Assembly: GCA_020852255.1 (NCBI GenBank)
Contig: JADZBD010000016.1
Location: 124,001-188,000, forward strand
DNA from: Bacteroidia bacterium
Lineage (GTDB): Bacteria; Bacteroidota; Bacteroidia; JADZBD01
Reading direction: 5' to 3'
DNA length: 64,000 nucleotides
This document shows, piece by piece, positions 751 to 16,909 of this stretch. A program made the position numbers and the translations under genes. The notes under the pieces are model-generated. The model was not told the origin of the DNA and ran no database searches. It saw nothing but the letters and a program-made list of their open reading frames with translations. How positions within the stretch are numbered: the first letter of the stretch is position 1; every line of letters starts with the position of its first letter.

Positions 751-1797
751 TTACTCGGAGTATTTAGTCATAAATTCTTCCACCTCGAGATGCAGGGCTG
801 CTGCAAGCTCTTTGGAAGTGAACTTATGGGCGTTTTTATATTTCAAAATCAGGTCGCGCAGCAATAGGGGTTTCTCCTTTTGGAAATCTAACTCAATCGG
901 TTCGCGTCTGCGTATTTTCATTTGATTGAATTGAGAAAGCAGATACTTCTTTTGGTTATCTGTAAGGAATCCCAGATCTGCGGCTCGATATAAAAGCGAA
1001 ATCATGGAAACTTTCCATTTGCGTTTTAATTCCCCAAGTAAGGAAACTGAAACCCCCTTCTCAAAATCCTTTTTTAATTCATTTTCAGGCATCAATAAAC
1101 CCGCTGCAAATAAATTTGCTTCGTGTGATATATCTCTGTCGTGCGAGGGAAGTGTATGCGAGTGCATCACTAAATGACCAAGCTCGTATGCCAGGCTGAA
1201 CCTCTGCCTGTCGGCAAGGTGTGTTTTATTTATCACAATAATCGGGTGCTTGTCTTTGGTAAGGATAGTTCTGCTGTCCACTCGTTCCGTTCCGAAATCA
1301 ACCGCAATAACAATAATGCCGTTGGCTTCTAAAAGTTCGGTAAGATTCTCAACGGGTCCTTTTGGCATCTTCCATGACTTTCGTAATTGCTTTGCTACCT
1401 GTTCCTCTGAACCAATCTTTTTTAAGTCTAAATCAGGAATGTTCAGCGCAGGAAGTTTTAGTTTCTGCGAAATGGTTTCAATGTTCAGGCGGTATATGTT
1501 CAGACTTGCCTCTAAAGGCATAAGAACTTTTGCCGATACATGGTCGCGCTTGCGGTAATTCAAGCTCATGGGCAGGTATGCCTCCCCCTCCTGATAAAAG
1601 AACTCAATAGGGTATTTGAGCAATTTGCTCATGCGCTCAAGGGTGGGCTCAGGCAGGGACTTATTATCCATCTCAATTTTGCAGATGAAAGCAGGAGAAG
1701 TGCTGAGTTTCTCAGCCAGTTCCTTCTGCGATACACCTCTGGATTCCCGTGCGAGAACCACCATTTTGGGGTTGATTTGTACTTCAGTTGCAACCAT
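751..1797 (-). CDS. XRE HTH fused to ImmA/IrrE-like domain with altered zinc motif
   Basis: This 348 aa protein has an N-terminal XRE helix-turn-helix (about residues 12-66, with GVSQKELAEKL and PAFICKIE) and a C-terminal ImmA/IrrE (DUF955) peptidase-like domain. The family motif HExxH reads Y204-E-L-G-H208 here (codon TAC where CAC gives His), while the following signature EANLFAAGLLMP (226-237) is canonical. A first zinc-ligand substitution suggests loss of proteolysis. I chose the ATG at 1797 because the longer frame adds 19 residues before the usual start of the HTH. It diverges from the nucleotidyltransferase operon across a 205-base intergenic region. In described CBASS loci an HTH repressor and an ImmA-like protease (CapH and CapP) control the operon, so a regulatory role is likely. 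Confidence 0.85.
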   Translation of the reverse strand: MVATEVQINPKMVVLARESRGVSQKELAEKLSTSPAFICKIEMDNKSLPEPTLERMSKLLKYPIEFFYQEGEAYLPMSLNYRKRDHVSAKVLMPLEASLNIYRLNIETISQKLKLPALNIPDLDLKKIGSEEQVAKQLRKSWKMPKGPVENLTELLEANGIIVIAVDFGTERVDSRTILTKDKHPIIVINKTHLADRQRFSLAYELGHLVMHSHTLPSHDRDISHEANLFAAGLLMPENELKKDFEKGVSVSLLGELKRKWKVSMISLLYRAADLGFLTDNQKKYLLSQFNQMKIRRREPIELDFQKEKPLLLRDLILKYKNAHKFTSKELAAALHLEVEEFMTKYSE

Positions 1798-1869
1798 AAT
1801 TTGTATTAAAATGCGTTTCGGGGCAAAGGAAAACATATTTTCCGAATTGACCAAGTAATTGACCTATTT

Positions 1870-2002: not shown

Positions 2003-2296
2003 ATGAAAAATCTCGGAGAGATTATTAGAGAGCTGCGCGAAGCTCAGGATATTCCATTAAGGATTGTATCGGCATTTCTTGATGTTGACCCTGCTATACT
2101 CAGCAAGATTGAGCGTGGGCAACGAAAGCCAACCAAAGAACAGGTGATAAAACTTGCCGATTACTTCAAGGTTAACAGAGAGGATTTGATTGTGGCTTGG
2201 CTCTCGGATAAAATAGTATATGAGGTGGAAGATGAAGAGCAGGCAATAAAGGCACTTCATGTTGCTGAACAAAAAATTAAATACTCAAAAAAATAA
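2003..2296 (+). CDS. XRE-family HTH regulator, first gene of defence operon
   Basis: This 97 aa protein carries a helix-turn-helix at about residues 6-62 (LREAQDIPLRIVSAFLDVD, ILSKIERGQRKPT) followed by a short charged helical tail. It resembles small controller-type XRE proteins that precede restriction-modification or other defence genes in Bacteroidota. The next gene starts 4 bases after its stop, so it is co-transcribed with the nucleotidyltransferase. Autoregulation through the dyads upstream is plausible, in the way CapH-type repressors control CBASS operons. The position is shown by the sequence; the CapH analogy is inference. Confidence 0.85.
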   Translation: MKNLGEIIRELREAQDIPLRIVSAFLDVDPAILSKIERGQRKPTKEQVIKLADYFKVNREDLIVAWLSDKIVYEVEDEEQAIKALHVAEQKIKYSKK

Positions 2297-2299
2297 ACC

Positions 2300-3331
2300 A
2301 TGAATAAGAACTACACACAGCGATTAGACAAGCTGAGAAAAAGAAGACTTGATGAGAGTATTCAGAAAGCGATTCTTTCAAAATCATTTTCCGATATAAA
2401 CATTAGTGAGAGTGTAAAGTACGCTTTGGAAGCAATGAGTGAAATTGACCCTAACTATACAAAGAATACCTATCTCGCCTCTGAAAATATAAGAACAAAT
2501 CTCACCACAGGTCTTATTAAGAAAGGGCTATCTGTTGAATACAGACATCAAGGTTCAATCGAAACTAATACTCATATCAAAATTCATAGCGATATTGATA
2601 TTCTTGTATTCACCGATAAATATTTTTCAGTTGAGCCGCCAGTAACAGTTTCTTCGGTGTATCAAGGAAGCCCGTTAGATGATTTAAGAGAACTACGACA
2701 AGAGTGTTTTAATGTTTTGAATGGAATCTATTCGCAGGTTGACAATTCCAATTCAAAAGCAATAACGGTTTATCCTACGAATCCGAAACGCAAGGTTGAA
2801 GTTGTTCCAAGTAATTGGGTAGATACATCAGATTACCGAAATTACAGTTTGGAAATTTACAGAGGAGTTCATATCTACGACAAAGACAGCCATACCAGAG
2901 AAAAAGACTTCCCTTTCCTTCATATTAATCGTGTTAATACTAAGGATAGCAATGTTAATGGCGGACTTAGAAGGCTCTCACGGTTATTAAAAACACTCAA
3001 AGTTGATGCCGATTATGAAATTAAGTTATCAAGTTTTGAAATAGTAAGTTCGGTGTACGGCATGGATAACAGCGTTCTTACAAAGCATAACAATCAGCAG
3101 TTGCTTTTACTCAACGAAGGAAGTAAGCATCTTGAGAAACTTATTTCCGATAGTAATTACAGGGAGAACTTAGTGTCGCCCAACGGAAAGGAAAAAGTTT
3201 ATGGAACCAATTCATCCAAAGTAGTTGAATTGAAAAAATTAAAACTGGAGTTAGATGAATTGATTCAGGATGTTACGGAAGAATTAGGAAGAAAGCTCAA
3301 GCGTATTGATGAAACACTAATTTATTCTTAA
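2300..3331 (+). CDS. CBASS cGAS/DncV-like nucleotidyltransferase (CD-NTase)
   Basis: This 343 aa protein shows the polymerase-beta-type nucleotidyltransferase core: helix-capping GS at residues 85-86, metal-binding D98-I-D100 (HSDIDILV), and a third acidic strand in KVEVVPSNW, where the residue is E167 rather than the usual Asp. Such enzymes make cyclic di- or trinucleotide alarm signals after phage infection. The direct neighbour is a TIR-STING effector; CD-NTases from Bacteroidota TIR-STING loci (CdnE clade) were described as making c-di-GMP, so that product is the best guess. The stop overlaps the next start by one base. A metabolic or toxin nucleotidyltransferase is a less likely alternative given the STING neighbour. 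Confidence 0.9.
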   Translation: MNKNYTQRLDKLRKRRLDESIQKAILSKSFSDINISESVKYALEAMSEIDPNYTKNTYLASENIRTNLTTGLIKKGLSVEYRHQGSIETNTHIKIHSDIDILVFTDKYFSVEPPVTVSSVYQGSPLDDLRELRQECFNVLNGIYSQVDNSNSKAITVYPTNPKRKVEVVPSNWVDTSDYRNYSLEIYRGVHIYDKDSHTREKDFPFLHINRVNTKDSNVNGGLRRLSRLLKTLKVDADYEIKLSSFEIVSSVYGMDNSVLTKHNNQQLLLLNEGSKHLEKLISDSNYRENLVSPNGKEKVYGTNSSKVVELKKLKLELDELIQDVTEELGRKLKRIDETLIYS

Positions 3332-4275
3332 TGAAAATACGAATTTTCATAGGTAGTTCCAGCGAAGGAATTAAAATAGCAAGGCAAACTAAAACCTTTC
3401 TCGAAAAGACTTTGAATGCAGAGTGTATTGTTTGGGAAAATATTGGTGTGTTTGAGTACAATAAAAGCACTTTTGAAGCATTGCTGAAAGGAAGATTACT
3501 TTATGACTTTGCTATTCTTGTGGCCACAAAGGATGATATTGTTTGGTGGCGAAGGATGGTTGATAGTGTTCCAAGAGATAATGTAATTTTTGAGTTCGGT
3601 TTGTATTTAGGTGCATTAGGAGATACGAGGACACTCTTATTGCAGGAAGGCGGAGTTAAGTTACCTACTGACCTGAATGGAATTACCCTGCCAAGATTTT
3701 CGGTAAAGAAAAATAATCTCGAATCAAAACTGAGCGAAGTTGCAGGTTATATTTCTAAAAGCATTAAGCATAACGAATTTCATCTGCTTCCGTCTACCGC
3801 TTTAGCAGTAGGTTACTTTAATAGCTTTTTGAAAAGTGCGACTGCAATACTGATGGAAACAAAGGATTGCGTGAAGATCAAGGATGCAAATTATTCATGC
3901 AAACGAATCAAAGTTATAATTCCGGAAACTTTAAGTGATGATATTGCAGAGAAGGCAAAGTTGTTTTTTGATACTCACGCGATAGAAATTTCCGAAATAC
4001 AGAATGGTAAACGACCATTCAAAGTTCAATTTGCATACGATAGTTCCGATAAGAATAATATTGTTATCGTTGATATGCCATTTACATTAAACACAATTCG
4101 CCCATGCTGTACTCTTCTGCTCAAGAAATCAAATATAGGAGTTGGAAACAGTCAGCAGCTTGTTGAACAAAGAGAAATATTAAATTTCAAGTCAACTTTA
4201 GAAAATTTGATTGAACAAAATGACTATTGCAAAAAAGTAGTTTCAATAATGTTTGAAAGCAAGTACACAAAATAA
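3331..4275 (+). CDS. TIR-STING CBASS effector
   Basis: This 314 aa protein has two parts. Residues 1-147 form a TIR-like domain (KIRIFIGSSSEG, VATKDD, PRDNVIFEFGLYLGA) with E88 in the position of the catalytic NADase Glu (E84 in Sphingobacterium faecium STING, recalled from memory). Residues about 150-314 match bacterial STING: HLLPSTALAVGYFNSFLK opens it, and VDMPFTLNTI supplies an Asp/Thr pair (D248, T252) where the ligand pocket lies in known members. In the known family, cyclic dinucleotide binding drives filament formation and NAD+ cleavage, causing growth arrest or death of infected cells. There is no transmembrane segment, so it is cytosolic. The fused architecture and adjacent CD-NTase make this call strong. 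Confidence 0.93.
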   Translation: MKIRIFIGSSSEGIKIARQTKTFLEKTLNAECIVWENIGVFEYNKSTFEALLKGRLLYDFAILVATKDDIVWWRRMVDSVPRDNVIFEFGLYLGALGDTRTLLLQEGGVKLPTDLNGITLPRFSVKKNNLESKLSEVAGYISKSIKHNEFHLLPSTALAVGYFNSFLKSATAILMETKDCVKIKDANYSCKRIKVIIPETLSDDIAEKAKLFFDTHAIEISEIQNGKRPFKVQFAYDSSDKNNIVIVDMPFTLNTIRPCCTLLLKKSNIGVGNSQQLVEQREILNFKSTLENLIEQNDYCKKVVSIMFESKYTK

Positions 4276-4281
4276 TTTATT

Positions 4282-4818
4282 ATGCCAAATACGATAAGAG
4301 TGTATCCCGATGGAGATGTTTGGGTTGTCAAAAAAGATGGCAACTCAAAAGCCTCAGCAATAAGAGATACGCAGAGAGAAGCGTACTTGGCTGCAAGGGA
4401 AATTGCACTTAATCAGGGATTATCAATTACAGTTCATGGCCCGAACGGACAGATACAAAAAGTAGTCAATCCTCAAGACCGAGCATCTAATGATGGTTGC
4501 TTCATTACAACTGCCTGCGTAAAAGCAAAAGGGCTTCCTGATAATTGCTATGAATTGGAAACGCTCAGAAAATTCCGAGAGGAATATGTTCGCCTTCTTC
4601 CTGAAGGGTCATTGCTGTTGAAGCAGTATAAGACCATTGCGCCTCAAATTGTAAAATTGCTTAAAAAGCAAAAAGATAAAAAAATGGTTTATGATTCTCT
4701 CTATGTGAAAATATCCCTTGCCTGTATTTTTATTGAACGGAATGAAAACGAGAAGGCATTTGAAATTTATTGCTCCACAGTAAGAGAGTTATCCTCTCAT
4801 TTTGATTTATCTGAATAA
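4282..4818 (+). CDS. DUF2188 domain plus CFI-box protein, CBASS-associated
   Basis: Residues 4-62 of this 178 aa protein match DUF2188 (VYPDGDVWVVKKDGNSKAS, then a helix and VHGPNGQIQK). A second module begins with CFITTA at 73-78 and continues DNCYELETLRKFREEY (87-102), the CFI-box signature seen in many bacterial proteins of unknown role. The C-terminus is helical. It lies 6 bases after TIR-STING and overlaps the AbiGi-like start by one base, so it is translated with the defence genes. Its biochemical role is unknown; neither module is a standard CBASS component as far as I know. C73 and C79 could be functional. Confidence 0.75.
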   Translation: MPNTIRVYPDGDVWVVKKDGNSKASAIRDTQREAYLAAREIALNQGLSITVHGPNGQIQKVVNPQDRASNDGCFITTACVKAKGLPDNCYELETLRKFREEYVRLLPEGSLLLKQYKTIAPQIVKLLKKQKDKKMVYDSLYVKISLACIFIERNENEKAFEIYCSTVRELSSHFDLSE

Positions 4819-5600
4819 TGGCTTCCCGCTCATCTTATAGCGCGGTAAGCGCAAATACCCTATTTCACTTCACGAGCGGACTTGATGTTATTCGTGGTGT
4901 TCTCAGAACGGGATTTTACCCTTCCTATCATCGTGAAGTATTAAAGGACATTCTTCGCAGTAAAAGCGAATATGGAGTTTCCTATGTTCCTATGGTTTGC
5001 TTTTGCGACATTCCCTTGACAAGAATTAAAAAGCATATTCAGGACTATGGTAGTTATGGAATTGGGCTTTCAAAGAAGTGGGGGCTAAAGCAGAAAATTT
5101 GTCCGATAATTTATGTGGATAAAAATTCAAGCACGGTTTCTCACATCAAAAAACTGACCGAGAACCTTACAGTATTAGACGAAACATATAAAGCAGGATT
5201 AAAGCAAGCAGAAACAATAGATGATGATATTTTGGATTTTGAAAATGTTATGGGCGAACTGATGCACATTTATAAATATCTTAAACCATATAAAAGAGCA
5301 GATACCGTGTTTTATGATGAACGCGAATGGAGATATGTTCCTTATGGAAGCCAATACCCTGTGCTTTGGAGAGGAAAATTTAAACGGAGATTCAAGTTGA
5401 ATAAACTTTTAAGAAAGGAAGCTCCTTTAACTTTTACGCCTGATGAGATAAATTATATCATAGTGAAAAATAATAAGGAAATTCCTAAAATGGTGGATAT
5501 GATAAACAGGCTACCGGATAGACCTTATACCAAGAACATGAAGAAAATATTGGCTACGAAAATTATTACCACCGAGCAGCTTGACAAGGATTTTGGATAG
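4818..5600 (+). CDS. AbiGi-like abortive infection protein
   Basis: This 260 aa protein has the ordered motifs of the AbiGi family: LFHFTSG (15-21), VPMVCFCDIPL (57-67), YGSYGIGLSKKWG (77-89), PIIYV (96-100) and REWRYVP (169-175). AbiGi was named as the antitoxin-side member of a lactococcal abortive phage resistance pair. The HFT / FCDIP / GIGL / EWR layout also resembles DUF2971 and DarT-like proteins, so an ADP-ribosyltransferase-like, NAD-using fold is possible; that part is inference. It is the last gene of the tightly packed defence operon, with its ATG overlapping the preceding stop. No AbiGii partner is next to it. Confidence 0.75.
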   Translation: MASRSSYSAVSANTLFHFTSGLDVIRGVLRTGFYPSYHREVLKDILRSKSEYGVSYVPMVCFCDIPLTRIKKHIQDYGSYGIGLSKKWGLKQKICPIIYVDKNSSTVSHIKKLTENLTVLDETYKAGLKQAETIDDDILDFENVMGELMHIYKYLKPYKRADTVFYDEREWRYVPYGSQYPVLWRGKFKRRFKLNKLLRKEAPLTFTPDEINYIIVKNNKEIPKMVDMINRLPDRPYTKNMKKILATKIITTEQLDKDFG

Positions 5601-5663
5601 ACTACTGGGAATTTTGGTCCCAAATGTGCCATTTTGGACATACATTAAAAATGCCTATCTTTG
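5590..5663 (+). promoter_or_regulatory. Metal cluster promoter with three ATTTTGG repeats
   Basis: TTTG at 5633-5636 and TATCTTTG at 5656-5663, separated by 19 bases, are a textbook Bacteroidota promoter. The 7-mer ATTTTGG occurs three times in direct orientation at 5590, 5611 and 5631, spaced 21 and 20 bases (two helical turns), the third covering the -33 element. The first copy lies inside the end of the AbiGi-like gene. A metal-responsive regulator could bind these repeats. Transcription would start close to the GTG at 5668, leaving almost no leader. Confidence 0.65.
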
Positions 5664-5667
5664 CCAT

Positions 5668-5979
5668 GTGAGATTTATCAGCTTCATTTTAGCCGCATAT
5701 TTTTTATGGCTATCGGTCAAAACCTGTAGCGATTCCCCTGTTGCCGTTGATACCTGTAAAACTGTTGCCTGTTTGCATATAGAAGCAGGTACTCAGGATA
5801 GTCATGAATCAGACGGTTGCTCACCGCTTTGTATGTGCCAGTGTTGCGGTGGCATAACATTAATTTATGACCATTCTCCGAGTTTTGTAGTTGAATTGGT
5901 TTCTTCCACCGCAAGTATTTACCTCGATAATTCTACTTCCGAGCTTTCCTACTCCATCTGGCAGCCGCCTAAAGTTTAA
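5668..5979 (+). CDS. Cys/His-rich DUF6660-like secreted protein
   Basis: This 103 aa protein begins with a hydrophobic signal-like segment (VRFISFILAAYFLWLSV) followed by a Cys/His-rich region (CSDS, DTCKTVACLH, CSPLCMCQCCG). It ends IWQPPKV, as in DUF6660-like proteins that precede CzcA-type pumps in Bacteroidota. I chose the GTG at 5668 because the promoter element ends at 5663 and the frame upstream overlaps the defence gene; an alternative start is possible. The many cysteines suggest periplasmic metal binding. It is the first gene of the metal cluster. Confidence 0.65.
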   Translation: MRFISFILAAYFLWLSVKTCSDSPVAVDTCKTVACLHIEAGTQDSHESDGCSPLCMCQCCGGITLIYDHSPSFVVELVSSTASIYLDNSTSELSYSIWQPPKV

Positions 5980-6056
5980 TCTTTTTCCTTTTTATCAATT
6001 TTCTGAAAGGGCGTATTATGTCCTTTCGGATAATGGTGTTTTACATTTAATAGGAA

Positions 6057-6209
6057 TTGGATTTAAACAATATTGAAATCAAAAAGAAACGGAAACCGCT
6101 TACTCTTGGAAAGATAATTAGAGTTATATCAATTATCCTCATCAGCCTGATATTGCTATTTGGCGTTACAGAAAGGGTTTACCATTATTATCATCACCTA
6201 ATAAGATAA
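6057..6209 (+). CDS. Small single-span membrane protein, 50 aa, TTG start
   Basis: An open frame from TTG at 6057 to TAA at 6207-6209 encodes a basic N-terminus (EIKKKRKPLTLGK), one strong hydrophobic helix (VISIILISLILLFGV) and a His/Tyr-rich tail (VYHYYHHLIR). It stops 2 bases before the ATG of the RND pump, so translation is probably coupled. The architecture suggests a small inner-membrane partner of the efflux system with a metal-binding periplasmic or cytosolic tail. There is no ATG in frame and I know of no family, so this remains a prediction. Confidence 0.5.
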   Translation: MDLNNIEIKKKRKPLTLGKIIRVISIILISLILLFGVTERVYHYYHHLIR

Positions 6210-6211
6210 TT

Positions 6212-9200
6212 ATGCTCGATAAAATCATATCATTCAGTATAAAAAACAAGTTCATTATCGGATTGATGACACTTGCCCTAATAGTATGGGGAGTTTGGAG
6301 CGCTAATAAACTGCCCATTGATGCAGGTCCCGACATCACAAACAATCAAGTGCAAATTATCACCCTTTGCCCAACGCTTGCAGGGCAGGAAGTGGAACAG
6401 CTTGTAACCTATCCGATTGAACAAAGTATCGCTAACCTGCCCGATCTTGAGGAACTGCGGAGCATATCCCGCTTCGGACTTTCGGTAATTACCGTTGTAT
6501 TCAAGGACAAAGTGGATATTTATTTTGCCCGTCAGCTCGTCAATGAAAAATTGAAAGAAGCTGAAGAAAAAATCCCAAAAGGAATCGGCACTCCTGAATT
6601 AGCTCCTGTCAGTACGGGGTTGGGTGAAATCTACCAGTACATTATCCACCCTAAGAAGGGCAGCGAGAAAAAATACACCGCAATGGATTTGCGTACTATG
6701 CAGGATTGGATTGTGGCACGGCAGCTCTACGGCACTCCCGGAATTGCAGAGGTAAATAGTTTCGGAGGGCAGCTCAAGCAATATGAAGTAGCTGCAAATC
6801 CTGACCGATTACTTGCCATGAATGTTACCATACCGGAAATTTTTACCGCTCTCGAAAAGAACAACGAAAATACGGGAGGAGCATACATTGATAAAAAACC
6901 GAATGCTTACTTTATTCGTGGCGTAGGACTCATCGGTTCGTTTGACGATATTAAAAATATTGTTGTGAAGCTGAACCCAAACGGGATTCCTATTCTTATA
7001 AAGGATGTAGCTGAGGTTCGCTTGGGGAATGCAGTTCGCTATGGTGCGCTCACTTATAACGGGGAAGTGGATGCAGTTGGCGGAGTGGTAATGATGCTGA
7101 AGGGAGCAAACAGCGCAGAAGTTGTTGGTCTGGTCAAGGAGAAAATGAAAACCATTCAGAAGTCCTTGCCGGATGATGTAATCATTGAACCTTATCTCGA
7201 TAGAACAGACCTTGTGAACAGGGCGATTAATACTGTCGAAACAAATCTTATTGAGGGGGCATTAATTGTGATTTTGGTTCTTGTTCTCTTTCTCGGAAAT
7301 CTCCGTGCCGGATTGATTGTTGCATCTGCCATTCCTCTCTCCATGCTATTCGCATTAGGTATGATGAATGTATTTGGTGTAAGTGCAAACCTGATGAGCC
7401 TGGGTGCGATTGATTTCGGCTTGATTGTGGACGGAGCAGTAATCATCGTAGAGGCGACCTTATATTTTTTGGAGCGAAGAAAAAGCACCGACAGGCTTTC
7501 TCAATTAGAAATGGATGATGCGGTTGAAACAAGCGCAAAACGAATGATGAGCAGTGCTGCCTTCGGACAAATTATAATTATGATTGTGTACTTGCCTATT
7601 CTCAGTTTAATAGGCATTGAAGGGAAAATGTTCCGCCCGATGGCACAAACAGTTGCATTTGCAATCATTGGCGCAATGCTTCTATCCCTCACTTATATTC
7701 CCATGATGAGCGCATTATTCCTGCCGAAAAAAATGACGCATAAAAAAACAATTAGTGACAGAATGATGGATTTTTTCCAGCGAATTTATTCCCCGCTTTT
7801 GGATAAAGCAATTCGGTTCAAAAAGACAGTTGTAACTGTAACAGTTGTTATCTTTTTCATAGCTGCATTTATTTTTTCCAAAATGGGAGGAGAATTTATT
7901 CCCACGCTGCAAGAGGGAGATTTTGCTTTCCATTGCATTCTTCCTCAAGGCACATCCTTATCTCAAAGCATAGAGACATCAATGCAGGCATCACGGCTAA
8001 TAAAGGAATTCGATGAAGTGAAAATGGTGGTAGGTAAAACAGGAAGTGCCGAAGTGCCGACTGACCCAATGCCTCCTGAAGCATCCGACATGATGATAAT
8101 TCTAAAACCACAAAGCGAGTGGAAGCGCGACATTTCTTATGATGAACTCGCTGATGAAATAAATGAGAAATTAGAAACCATCCCCGGAGTTTTCTTCGAG
8201 AAAAGTCAGCCCATCCAAATGCGTTTTAATGAGTTGATGACAGGTATTCGTCAGGATGTGGCAATAAAAATCTTTGGCGAGAATATGGACACCCTTTTAA
8301 ATTATGCTAACAAGGTAAATGTGGTTGTGCAGGGTGTAGAAGGCGCAACAGAGCCTATGGTAGAAAGAGTTTCCGGGCTGCCGCAAATAGTAATTAAATA
8401 CAATCGCGCTCAGATTGCCAATTACGGGCTGAACATTGAAGACATCAACCACATCGTAAGTACGGGTTTTGCAGGAGGAGAGGCAGGTGTTGTTTACGAA
8501 AACGAAAGAAAATTCGATTTGGTTGTTCGACTGGACAGCACGCATCGGAATAAAATCGAGGATGTGAGCCATTTTTATATTCCTACTTCTGACGGAATGC
8601 AAATCCCGCTTTCACAGGTTGCCGATATAAAAATGGAATTGGGTCCCGCTCAGATCAGCCGTGAAGATGGTAAGCGAAGGATTGTTATCGGGTTTAATGT
8701 GAAAGGTCGCGATGTTGAGAGCGTAGTTACCGACATTCAAAAGCTACTGGCTGAAAAGGTAGAGCTTCCCGAAGGATATTATTACACCTATGGTGGAACT
8801 TTTGAAAACCTGCAAGCTGCATCGCAGCGCCTAATGATTGCCGTGCCGGTAGCACTTGCACTAATTTTCATGCTCCTGTATTTCACTTTTACTTCGGTCA
8901 AGCAAGCCACTCTTATTTACACAGCAATACCCATGAGTGCGATTGGGGGCGTGTTTGCCTTGCTCATACGCGATATGCCCTTCAGCATTTCAGCAGGCAT
9001 TGGTTTTATTGCTCTGTTTGGAGTAGCGGTCTTGAACGGAATAGTATTGGTTAGCACTTTTAATCAGTTGGAAAAGGACGGTGTGAGCGATATAATTGAA
9101 AGGGTATTGCAAGGAACAAAAATGAGATTACGCCCAGTGTTGATGACGGCAACCGTTGCTTCGCTTGGTTTTTTCCCAATGGCATTTTCGCATGGAGCAG

Positions 9201-10567
9201 GTGCGGAAGTACAAAAACCGTTAGCGACAGTGGTTATTGGTGGTTTGGCTACAGCGACATTCCTCACGCTGTTTGTACTACCCCTATTATATATCCTCTT
9301 TACAACAAAATCAAAACGGAAAATGAAAATAAACACAGGCGCGGCAATAATACTATTGCTTCTTTCTTTTGGCAGTGCGAATGCACAGTCGCCAAAGCAA
9401 TTATCAGTGACCGATGCAGTTGATTTGGCTTTGAAAAATAACCTGCAAATCCAGTCGGAGCAATTGAATGTGCAGTCGTCAACAGCTCTGAAGAAATCAA
9501 CCTTTGAATTGCCAAAAACGGAATTCAATTACCAGTACGGGCAGTACAACAGCATCAGCATGGATAACGGCTTCCAGTTAACACAGGGAATTCCTTTTCC
9601 TACTTACTATTCGGCAAAGTCGAATTTATATACGGCTGAAATTAAGGGAAGCGAATTGCAGCAGCAACTAACTACTGCCGAAGTAAAAGCGAAGGTACAG
9701 TTGTATTGTTATCAGATTTTGTATCTGCAAAATGTAAAAAAGCAGTTACAAAACTTGGATAGCCTGTATAATAATTTTGTTAATGCAGCATCGTTGCGGT
9801 ACAAAACAGGGGAAACCAACCTCCTTGAAAAGACAACTGCGGAAACAAAGCGCGGGCAACTTTCGCTGTTACTGAAGCAATACGAAAGCGAATATGTTTC
9901 TGTATATGCTGCTTTGAAAGCCTTAGTTAATTCAAAGGAGGATTTTGTAATCACTGGAGGGGAAAAACTTGAGCCATTAACATTAAGTCAAGCATTTGAC
10001 ACGACCCTTTTGGTAAACAATCCCTCGCTAAAACTTCTTTATCAACAGGCAATCATAGCGGAGCAAAATAAGAAACTGGAACTTGCCTCCACGCTGCCTG
10101 ATTTTAAGGTGGGTTATTTTAATCAATCCATTATCGGCTTTCAGAATGTGAATGGAAGCGATGTTTACTTTGATGCTAGCAAGCGATTTACAGGGTTCAA
10201 TGTTGGTGTGAGCATACCGCTTACCTTCTTCAGTAATTCTGCGAAAATTAAATCCCTTTCGCTTCAGCAGCAGTCGCTCCAGTTGAATGCCGACAATGCC
10301 AAACTACTCTTACAATCACAGCTTCAGTCTGCTTTTCAGCAGTACAATCAGAATCTTGCCCAATACAATTACTATAAAACCACCGCACTTTCTAATGCTG
10401 AAACCATCGTTAAAACGGCAGAAATTGGTTTTAAGAGTGGTAGCATTAATTACATCGAATACCTCACGGCTTTGCAGACGGCAACTGATGTACAGTTGGG
10501 TTACTTGCAAAGTATCAATCAGCTCAATCAATCGGTTATCAACATCAACTTCTTAACGAACAAATAA
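6212..10567 (+). CDS. czcA: CzcA/CusA-type heavy metal RND pump fused to TolC-like channel
   Basis: This 1451 aa protein starts with a full heavy-metal RND permease (about residues 1-1035): first TM after SIKNKFIIGLMTL, the HME-class signature AIDFGLIVDGAVIIVE in TM4, and the second six-helix bundle ending at about 1030. After a short basic linker (TKSKRKMK) a signal-like hydrophobic segment (IILLLLSFGSANA) leads into a TolC-family outer membrane channel (about 1060-1451). In Proteobacteria these are separate proteins, CzcA and CzcC; the fusion is known in Bacteroidota. The pump exports divalent or monovalent metal ions through the envelope with the adaptor encoded 11 bases downstream. Substrate (Co/Zn/Cd or Cu/Ag) is not certain from sequence. 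Confidence 0.93.
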   Translation: MLDKIISFSIKNKFIIGLMTLALIVWGVWSANKLPIDAGPDITNNQVQIITLCPTLAGQEVEQLVTYPIEQSIANLPDLEELRSISRFGLSVITVVFKDKVDIYFARQLVNEKLKEAEEKIPKGIGTPELAPVSTGLGEIYQYIIHPKKGSEKKYTAMDLRTMQDWIVARQLYGTPGIAEVNSFGGQLKQYEVAANPDRLLAMNVTIPEIFTALEKNNENTGGAYIDKKPNAYFIRGVGLIGSFDDIKNIVVKLNPNGIPILIKDVAEVRLGNAVRYGALTYNGEVDAVGGVVMMLKGANSAEVVGLVKEKMKTIQKSLPDDVIIEPYLDRTDLVNRAINTVETNLIEGALIVILVLVLFLGNLRAGLIVASAIPLSMLFALGMMNVFGVSANLMSLGAIDFGLIVDGAVIIVEATLYFLERRKSTDRLSQLEMDDAVETSAKRMMSSAAFGQIIIMIVYLPILSLIGIEGKMFRPMAQTVAFAIIGAMLLSLTYIPMMSALFLPKKMTHKKTISDRMMDFFQRIYSPLLDKAIRFKKTVVTVTVVIFFIAAFIFSKMGGEFIPTLQEGDFAFHCILPQGTSLSQSIETSMQASRLIKEFDEVKMVVGKTGSAEVPTDPMPPEASDMMIILKPQSEWKRDISYDELADEINEKLETIPGVFFEKSQPIQMRFNELMTGIRQDVAIKIFGENMDTLLNYANKVNVVVQGVEGATEPMVERVSGLPQIVIKYNRAQIANYGLNIEDINHIVSTGFAGGEAGVVYENERKFDLVVRLDSTHRNKIEDVSHFYIPTSDGMQIPLSQVADIKMELGPAQISREDGKRRIVIGFNVKGRDVESVVTDIQKLLAEKVELPEGYYYTYGGTFENLQAASQRLMIAVPVALALIFMLLYFTFTSVKQATLIYTAIPMSAIGGVFALLIRDMPFSISAGIGFIALFGVAVLNGIVLVSTFNQLEKDGVSDIIERVLQGTKMRLRPVLMTATVASLGFFPMAFSHGAGAEVQKPLATVVIGGLATATFLTLFVLPLLYILFTTKSKRKMKINTGAAIILLLLSFGSANAQSPKQLSVTDAVDLALKNNLQIQSEQLNVQSSTALKKSTFELPKTEFNYQYGQYNSISMDNGFQLTQGIPFPTYYSAKSNLYTAEIKGSELQQQLTTAEVKAKVQLYCYQILYLQNVKKQLQNLDSLYNNFVNAASLRYKTGETNLLEKTTAETKRGQLSLLLKQYESEYVSVYAALKALVNSKEDFVITGGEKLEPLTLSQAFDTTLLVNNPSLKLLYQQAIIAEQNKKLELASTLPDFKVGYFNQSIIGFQNVNGSDVYFDASKRFTGFNVGVSIPLTFFSNSAKIKSLSLQQQSLQLNADNAKLLLQSQLQSAFQQYNQNLAQYNYYKTTALSNAETIVKTAEIGFKSGSINYIEYLTALQTATDVQLGYLQSINQLNQSVININFLTNK

Positions 10568-14908: not shown

Positions 14909-16909
14909 ATGATTAATACAGACCCCAATCATAAACATACCTACAATGCTCAAGGCAAAATGATTTGTTGCACACTGGAAGAGAAAATAAATGCAAAAAC
15001 CGAACATACCCACGAGGGGCATGATCACGGAACGGCAAAATCTATGGTTTGGAAGGAATATCTTCCTGCGGTTGTAAGTTTTATTTTGCTGACTGCTGGA
15101 ATTATACTTGATAATTTCATTAAACCATACTTCTTTCAAAATAAAATCCCCCTGATTTGGTATTTGATCGCCTACATCCCTGTTGGGTTTCCTGTAATGA
15201 GAGATGCTGTAAAAGCCATTGCCAAAGGGGAATTTTTCACGGAATTTCTTCTGATGAGTATTGCAACAATCGGGGCATTTTTTATCGGGGAATATCCTGA
15301 AGGCGTTGCGGTAATGCTTTTCTATGCTGTTGGTGAATTAGTGCAATCAGCAGCGGTAAACCGAGCCAAGCGCAGCATAAAAGCATTGCTCGACATACGC
15401 CCGGATAAAGCGACTGTTTTGCGAAACGACACATTAACCGAGGTCAGTCCCGAAACGGTAAAGGTGGGGGAAATCATACAGATAAAAGCAGGTGAAAAAG
15501 CAGCATTAGATGGTATAATGCAATCGGCAGGAAGTTCCTTTAACACTGCTGCCCTCACAGGGGAAAGCAAGCCGGACACCATCAGGCAGGGAGAAACTGT
15601 TCTTGCGGGAATGATTAATCTTGAAAAAGTTGTTGAAATAAAAGTTTCAAAAGTGTTTTCTGAAAGTTCTCTTGCACGAATACTCGAATTGGTGCAAAAT
15701 GCTGCACAACGCAAAGCCCCCACCGAGCAGTTCATCCGCAAGTTTGCAAAAATATACACTCCCATCGTTGTCTTTCTTGCCATAGGATTAACCTTCTTGC
15801 CTTATTTATTTGTTTCGGAATATATATTTAATGACTGGCTTTATCGGGCATTGATATTTCTCGTTATCTCCTGTCCCTGCGCTTTGGTAATTTCCATTCC
15901 GCTCGGTTATTTTGGCGGCATAGGAGCTGCTTCCCGAAATGGAATTTTATTTAAAGGAAGCAACTATCTTGACCTCATTACAAAGGTGAATACCCTTGTT
16001 GCTGATAAAACAGGAACACTTACCAAAGGCGTATTCAAAGTGCAAAAAGTGGCGGTAGCGAATGATTTTGATGAGAAGAAGTTTGTCTATCTCACGGCTG
16101 CTCTTGAATCAAAATCCTCCCATCCTATTGCTAAAGCAATAACAGAATATGCAGGTGAAGACTATAAAAAAATATCTGTTCAGGATATTGAAGAAATTGC
16201 TGGGCATGGATTAAAGGGAAAAGCAGACGGCATGGAAATTCTAGCGGGCAATCACAAGCTGCTCGACAAGTTCAACATTCTATATACCCTCAACCCTAAA
16301 AATATTGTAGATACGATTGTAATGGTTGCCATTAACGGACAATACAAGGGATTTATCACAGTTGCCGATGAATTAAAGGAGGACGCAAAAAAGGCTATTG
16401 ATGACCTCCATCATATTGGGGTTAGTAATGTCATTGTACTTTCAGGGGATAAAAATTCCGTAACGCAAAAAATCGCTTCCCAGTTAAACATTGATACCGC
16501 TTTTGGCGAATTGTTGCCTGAGCAAAAAGTTGCGAAAGTAGAGGAGCTAAAGCAAGATAAGAGTAGGATTATTGCCTTTGCAGGTGATGGAATTAACGAT
16601 GCCCCCGTACTTGCTCTGAGTGATGTTGGGATTGCAATGGGGGCATTAGGAAGTGATGCTGCCATTGAAACAGCCGATGTTGTAATACAAACCGATGAGC
16701 CGTCAAAGATTGCCACAGCAATTAAAATCGGGAAAGCAACTAACAAAATTGTATGGCAGAACATAGGGCTTGCTTTTGGAGTTAAAGTAATTGTGCTTGC
16801 TCTTGGAGCGGGTGGCATAGCAACCATGTGGGAAGCGGTGTTTGCTGATGTGGGAGTGGCTTTGCTGGCGATATTGAATGCAGTGAGAATTCAGAAAATG
16901 AAATTCTAA
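14909..16909 (+). CDS. Zn/Cd/Pb-type heavy metal P-type ATPase
   Basis: This 666 aa P1B-type ATPase has TGES at 217-220, the intramembrane metal site CPC at 322-324, the phosphorylation motif DKTGT at 366-370, the HP motif (SSHPIAKAI) near 406 and GDGINDAP in the hinge. It lacks an N-terminal HMA domain. Instead residues 1-41 are rich in His and Cys (HKH, MICC, HTHEGHDHG). The CPC motif with the downstream sequence suggests export of Zn, Cd, Pb or Co to the periplasm, where the RND pump would take over. It is downstream of the pump genes on the same strand. Confidence 0.9.
   Translation: MINTDPNHKHTYNAQGKMICCTLEEKINAKTEHTHEGHDHGTAKSMVWKEYLPAVVSFILLTAGIILDNFIKPYFFQNKIPLIWYLIAYIPVGFPVMRDAVKAIAKGEFFTEFLLMSIATIGAFFIGEYPEGVAVMLFYAVGELVQSAAVNRAKRSIKALLDIRPDKATVLRNDTLTEVSPETVKVGEIIQIKAGEKAALDGIMQSAGSSFNTAALTGESKPDTIRQGETVLAGMINLEKVVEIKVSKVFSESSLARILELVQNAAQRKAPTEQFIRKFAKIYTPIVVFLAIGLTFLPYLFVSEYIFNDWLYRALIFLVISCPCALVISIPLGYFGGIGAASRNGILFKGSNYLDLITKVNTLVADKTGTLTKGVFKVQKVAVANDFDEKKFVYLTAALESKSSHPIAKAITEYAGEDYKKISVQDIEEIAGHGLKGKADGMEILAGNHKLLDKFNILYTLNPKNIVDTIVMVAINGQYKGFITVADELKEDAKKAIDDLHHIGVSNVIVLSGDKNSVTQKIASQLNIDTAFGELLPEQKVAKVEELKQDKSRIIAFAGDGINDAPVLALSDVGIAMGALGSDAAIETADVVIQTDEPSKIATAIKIGKATNKIVWQNIGLAFGVKVIVLALGAGGIATMWEAVFADVGVALLAILNAVRIQKMKF

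Follow-up and report, generated by a model that had tools for sequence, protein, structure and literature searches.

A CFI-box–AbiGi gene module with a putative ADP-ribosyltransferase-type effector behind a type I TIR-STING CBASS in a Bacteroidia genome

In the window (the whole stretch of 64,000 nucleotides analysed here, from Bacteroidia assembly GCA_020852255.1, contig JADZBD010000016.1, positions 124,001 to 188,000), an operon was found in the order XRE regulator, CD-NTase, TIR-STING, DUF2188 plus CFI-box protein and AbiGi. The last two genes form a conserved two-gene module that is independent of CBASS and phylogenetically unified. The explanation that we favour, at a probability of roughly 55%, is that this CFI-AbiGi module, with an AbiGi whose ADP-ribosyltransferase (ART) fold is related to those of DarT and DUF2971, is an anti-phage or conflict unit of its own, placed behind a type I TIR-STING CBASS. 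AbiGi thus looks more like a second defence hitch-hiking on the CBASS than like one of its components, because the module normally lives without CBASS.

The last gene of the operon (4818-5600, plus strand; ATG start, 260 aa) encodes a predicted ART-like (DarT/DUF2971-related) effector. It proved to be AbiGi, as the initial annotation had it: the Pfam AbiGi family PF10899 is matched at E=2.7e-25 (89.9 bits, above the gathering cut-off of 22.4), and the PADLOC AbiGi model covers the entire protein at E=2.8e-49. A chance ORF at 4818-5600 was rejected on the Pfam match. Both models are thus shared with lactococcal AbiG, yet the window protein differs in having no AbiGii behind it and a CFI-box gene in front, and in falling far under the NCBIfam equivalog for lactococcal AbiGI (57.8 bits versus a cut-off of 300), so the matches argue for family membership and not for orthology to the lactococcal AbiGi. 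No AbiGii-sized ORF was found 3′ of 5600, where the next plus-strand ORFs are of 132 and 61 aa and are followed by a CusA-like gene. This very long CusA-type RND protein (6212-10567, 1451 aa), which from its sequence alone is seemingly fused to an outer-membrane efflux part, belongs to a metal-resistance region that adjoins the defence genes and also harbours a Zn/Cd P-type ATPase (14909-16909).

An alignment of 86 AbiGi sequences served as the basis for the conservation counts, an AlphaFold2 model and a tree. The motifs reported earlier do occur in the claimed order: HFT (aa 17-19; 4866-4874, plus strand), with H17 in the first strand and in 85 of the 86 sequences; FCDIP (aa 62-66; 5001-5015, plus), with F62, C63 and D64 invariant in 86/86; GIGL (aa 82-85; 5061-5072, plus), with G83 invariant; and EWR (aa 170-172), which is part of EREWR (aa 168-172; 5319-5333, plus), where E168, E170, W171 and R172 are invariant in 86/86 and a candidate catalytic glutamate is found. 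The polar residues that are invariant or nearly so, H17, E40, D64, K156, E168, E170 and R172, together with C63, suggest a putative active site. Position 36 is S in the window protein and R or K in most relatives.

The AlphaFold2 model of AbiGi is of high confidence (pLDDT 92.5, pTM 0.87), and Foldseek against PDB placed Thermus DarT at ranks 1-3 (E 0.12-0.15, probability 0.44-0.47, TM by target 0.37-0.40). DarT or Tpt1/KptA accounted for 12 of the 29 PDB matches, including DarT with ssDNA, T. africanus DarTG and several Tpt1/KptA entries. Moreover, the A2 profile gave E. coli DarT1 (8baq) as its top PDB match (E 0.17) via the HFT strand plus helix; DarT was not found in PDB by the divergent AbiGi profile or by the DUF2971 profile. 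In hhalign the AbiGi-DarT score was 20.23 versus a shuffled maximum of 20.17, with none of 60 column-shuffled controls as high, a narrow excess, whereas AbiGi versus DUF2971 did not rise above the shuffled controls (4 of 60 as high). A plain phmmer search of PDB returned spurious phosphoribosyltransferase matches only and was discarded, and the viral-library fold search with the AbiGi model gave nothing significant.

Kinship with DUF2971 (PF11185) is suggested by matches at E<=1 in 12 of the 86 AbiGi members (which are kin, not independent), other foreign Pfam families being found in two members at most, and by the invariant order Y...K...E-x-E-x-R common to both families; a DUF2971 gene also follows AbiGi in one locus (L052/L088). 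DUF2971 differs in being below cut-off in AbiGi and in having neither the HFT nor the FCDIP signature. DarT, the toxin of DarTG, is the best structural and profile neighbour of AbiGi, with which it shares an HFT-like first strand plus helix, a V-P strand and, putatively, a conserved glutamate strand. E168 and E170 are invariant at model strand 170-173, and strand order would make E170 (or E168) the counterpart of the DarT glutamate. AbiGi is unlike DarT in four respects: (i) the window protein has no match to the Pfam DarT family PF14487 at E<=1; (ii) no macro-domain partner (PF01661, DarG-like) was matched in the whole genome; (iii) the catalytic arginine of DarT, which we take to be R51, has no invariant counterpart; (iv) a long helical insert is present at aa 105-152. 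The earlier proposal that the layout of AbiGi resembles DUF2971 and DarT-like folds is upheld, though as a remote likeness: DarT heads the fold and A2 profile searches and DUF2971 is the sole recurrent foreign Pfam family, but none of the ART matches, whether by fold or by profile, reaches significance by itself (every E above 0.1, TM 0.3-0.4). Taken together, the fold and profile matches make a remote ART-type fold a plausible best guess.

The alternative that survives best is that AbiGi is not an ADP-ribosyltransferase, and either adopts an unrelated fold or has a related one with another activity, for instance ligand binding or phosphotransfer of the Tpt1 kind. It draws on the weak E-values and TM scores, on Tpt1/KptA among the fold matches and on the DarT-type arginine not being conserved. 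Since ART-superfamily proteins dominate the fold matches despite their tiny share of PDB, and conserved H and E-x-E lie at ART-like positions, we regard it as unlikely, although it deserves to be kept in mind. Literature linking AbiG to ADP-ribosyltransferases was limited to incidental mentions, in a search largely without subscription papers.

The gene directly upstream of AbiGi (4282-4818, plus strand) encodes a DUF2188 plus CFI-box protein of 178 aa, which passes the CFI-box-CTERM (NF041770) cut-off (43.5 bits versus 40) and is a recurrent operonic partner of AbiGi, indeed the sole one among the loci examined. The one-base overlap claimed in the initial annotation was confirmed, as the ATG of AbiGi and the TAA that ends the CFI-box gene have one base in common (TCTGAATAATGGCTT). 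A CFI-box gene is immediately upstream of AbiGi in five more loci, all without CBASS (L052=L088, L084, L089, L102 and L110), at gaps of −11 to +3 bp. For example, genome G278 (L052, on the contig of L088) has the two genes that end the window's operon, DUF2188-CFI and AbiGi, preceded by an IrrE-like protease and DUF4411 and followed by the DUF2971 gene. The pair of L102 lies behind HsdM and HsdS of a type I restriction system. Across the six pairs, C73, T76, T77, A78 and C79 of the CFITTAC box (aa 73-79; 4498-4518, plus strand, in the window) are invariant, and the L110 protein retains the CFI part with a Lys/Ala-rich tail instead of the DUF2188 part.

On the tree of the 86 AbiGi sequences, the six CFI-paired proteins make up one side of a branch (SH-aLRT 94), and CFI pairing requires one change, with none of 500 shuffles as clustered. 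The pair thus constitutes a lineage of its own, with members located after restriction-modification genes, next to metabolic genes and, in a single case, after CBASS. CFI boxes are a general module: unrelated proteins carry them too, among them ones from phage structural operons and a Tat-type precursor. C-terminal CFI-box domains were observed in proteins within apparent phage structural gene runs (L231:4469-5011, L232:4761-5324 and L233:4104-5330), and CFI-box proteins with a Lys/Ala-rich, histone-H1-like N-terminus were seen both AbiGi-paired (L110:5548-5991) and standalone (L228:4579-5043). A fold search with the model of the CFI partner (pLDDT 83.9, pTM 0.58) ranked Cas1 first at TM <=0.23, which was regarded as meaningless.

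The arrangement of the pair could also be that of a toxin-antitoxin (TA) system, with AbiGi as an ART toxin that the CFI-box protein neutralizes in an addiction or abortive-infection unit; such a pair would fall within the favoured explanation as one form of it and does not exclude it. The small gene comes first, the start of AbiGi overlaps it and the pairing is strict within one AbiGi lineage; furthermore, DarT and CmdT are precedents of the TA type (PMC5179494, PMC11618068). Most AbiGi relatives are solo, however, and therefore tolerate the absence of an antitoxin, and the spread of CFI boxes over unrelated proteins also speaks against it, so that a TA pair appears rather unlikely. CmdT of CmdTAC, an mRNA ADP-ribosyltransferase, does provide a precedent for an ART as an anti-phage effector on nucleic acid (PMC11618068), but its likeness to AbiGi would be one of role, no sequence relation having been seen, and no chaperone gene is present here.

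Upstream of the module, the operon begins with an XRE-type HTH regulator (2003-2296, plus strand; CapH-like at a weak E of 2e-6), followed after 3 bp by the CD-NTase (2300-3331, plus; PADLOC E 2e-111) with its GS...DID motif at aa 85-100 and by the TIR-STING (Cap12-like) effector (3331-4275, plus; PF10137 E 1.7e-29, PF20300 E 2e-25) with an FEFG motif that includes the TIR glutamate E88. A CD-NTase and an effector with a ligand-binding domain, the core of a type I CBASS, are therefore both present, and with these motifs in place the CBASS looks intact. A divergent gene (751-1854, minus strand) encodes an HTH plus M78/IrrE-like protein that is RmrA/CapP-like (PADLOC RmrA E 4.8e-65, CapP E 5.6e-23) and a possible regulator. 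Its M78 motif reads YELGH where a zinc-binding HELGH would be expected, which makes protease activity doubtful, and the protein may be a non-proteolytic regulator. An XRE gene with a divergent HTH-M78 gene recalls the CapH/CapP control of CBASS. The divergent intergenic region (1855-2002) carries imperfect direct repeats (AAATTATTGAAATTTG) 60 bp apart, possibly for CapH-like control. Between TIR-STING and the CFI-box gene the gap is 6 bp (4275-4282), which suggests that CBASS and CFI-AbiGi are probably co-transcribed.

To place this arrangement among other genomes, alignment queries were required, as scanning viral and genome contigs with a single protein yielded no relatives; the alignment query recovered 348 AbiGi relatives in GTDB genomes (one scan) and 20 in viral contigs. 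Inspection covered 80 of the 348 GTDB relatives, and the 268 further matches lie outside the neighbourhood counts. AbiGi was solo in 61 of 91 interior occurrences (simple ORF caller, 40-bp rule). AbiGi or CFI together with CBASS was seen in the window only, with none in about 115 other AbiGi loci examined (the 268 further GTDB matches being outside this count), and a CD-NTase of the window's type was not detected in loci L081-L180. Among 395 genomes of the same class, AbiGi was matched in 18 and TIR-STING or TIR in 23, and none besides the window's genome was listed with both. Likewise, neither AbiGi nor CFI was found beside TIR-STING in the other loci retrieved from samples of the class (395 genomes) and of the phylum (396 genomes), which overlap in part. 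In the closest CBASS relative (L235), whose TIR-STING is 43% identical, a UDG-like gene (2449-3189) follows 15 bp after TIR-STING instead. Because TIR-STING loci elsewhere lack CFI and AbiGi and L235 has this other gene, the genes that trail TIR-STING CBASS appear, from best hits in the sampled genomes, to be variable cargo. Compared with the type I TIR-STING CBASS of Sphingobacterium faecium (PMC9402430), the window shares the CD-NTase, the Cap12 TIR-STING and the key motifs, and differs by the extra AbiGi and CFI genes.

Other neighbours of AbiGi were also recorded. In L062 a SIR2-like protein (5201-7327, minus strand; PF13289 E 2.3e-4) lies 6 bp after AbiGi, with a putAbiC gene directly upstream. 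In L061, L166, L176 and L180, and in L174, L175, L177 and L179, AbiGi adjoins recurrent gene clusters of (pro)phage contigs in a moron-like manner, and L166 carries two tandem AbiGi genes.

These distributions bear on the initial proposal of AbiGi as a second CBASS effector. On the fullest form of this reading AbiGi would be a true Cap protein that the cyclic dinucleotide or TIR-STING switches on and that works on NAD+ alongside TIR-STING. The 6-bp gap and the one-base overlaps suggest a single transcript, both proteins may use NAD+, and TIR-domain genes occur near AbiGi in L007, L123, L133 and L157, whether by defence-island chance or through a real NAD+-related link. Against this, the association with CBASS was observed a single time across about 115 AbiGi loci and never at the other TIR-STING loci examined, the CFI partner is retained in the five loci where CBASS is absent, and a Pfam domain search of the window AbiGi returned no CARF, SAVED or STING-like sensor domain. 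We consider a true second effector improbable. It is possible that AbiGi and TIR-STING both act on NAD+, as had been suggested, but joint action would bring no obvious advantage, since an ART would run short of NAD+ once TIR-STING had drained the pool; if TIR-STING does deplete NAD+ (PMC9402430) and so removes the ART substrate, it makes more sense to regard the two as separate layers.

That AbiGi is an antitoxin, of AbiGii-type toxins or of CBASS, is highly improbable: the family is named 'AbiGi, antitoxin' in the database and AbiGii follows AbiGi on Streptococcus and Enterococcus plasmids, but searches revealed no AbiGii in the window, nor among the 101 AbiGi occurrences in L081-L180. AbiGi is mostly solo, its invariant polar residues look catalytic, no experimental basis was found for the label, and a CBASS-antitoxin role was rejected as no such pairing was seen elsewhere. 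When abiGi and abiGii were expressed singly in E. coli, neither was toxic, and genes annotated as abiG are often in fact abiE (PMC3985639). This lack of toxicity of lactococcal AbiGi by itself also speaks against the ART effector that we favour, whereas two other reports fit it: cloning of intact abiG is reportedly lethal in E. coli (PMC2661086), and AbiG has been described as interfering with RNA transcription (PMC9952470).

Under the explanation that we favour, the CFI-AbiGi module, sitting directly behind the type I TIR-STING CBASS, would be expressed with it on one transcript, and AbiGi would be inactive until infection. On infection it would consume NAD+ in the ADP-ribosylation of a phage or cellular target, either nucleic acid or protein, and the CFI-box protein would tether it, regulate it or provide immunity to it. 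The ART activity, the NAD+ use, the target and the trigger of AbiGi, and this role of the CFI protein, are what we infer from the fold and from the pairing.

More broadly, AbiGi and DUF2971 may together be a large, so far unrecognized DarT-like ART family of anti-phage effectors, in which one Bacteroidota lineage has its own CFI-box partner to deliver the enzyme or hold it in check and is here joined to CBASS, two NAD+-consuming defences on one transcript; this wider reading is put forward tentatively, as a possibility short of even odds. The 'antitoxin' name of AbiGi in databases apparently stems from a two-gene analogy, and the evidence points instead to a widespread, mostly solo enzyme with an ART-like fold. 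Last position in a CBASS operon need not mean CBASS membership. An ART-like AbiGi, if true, would supply the missing chemistry of a long-known abortive-infection system.
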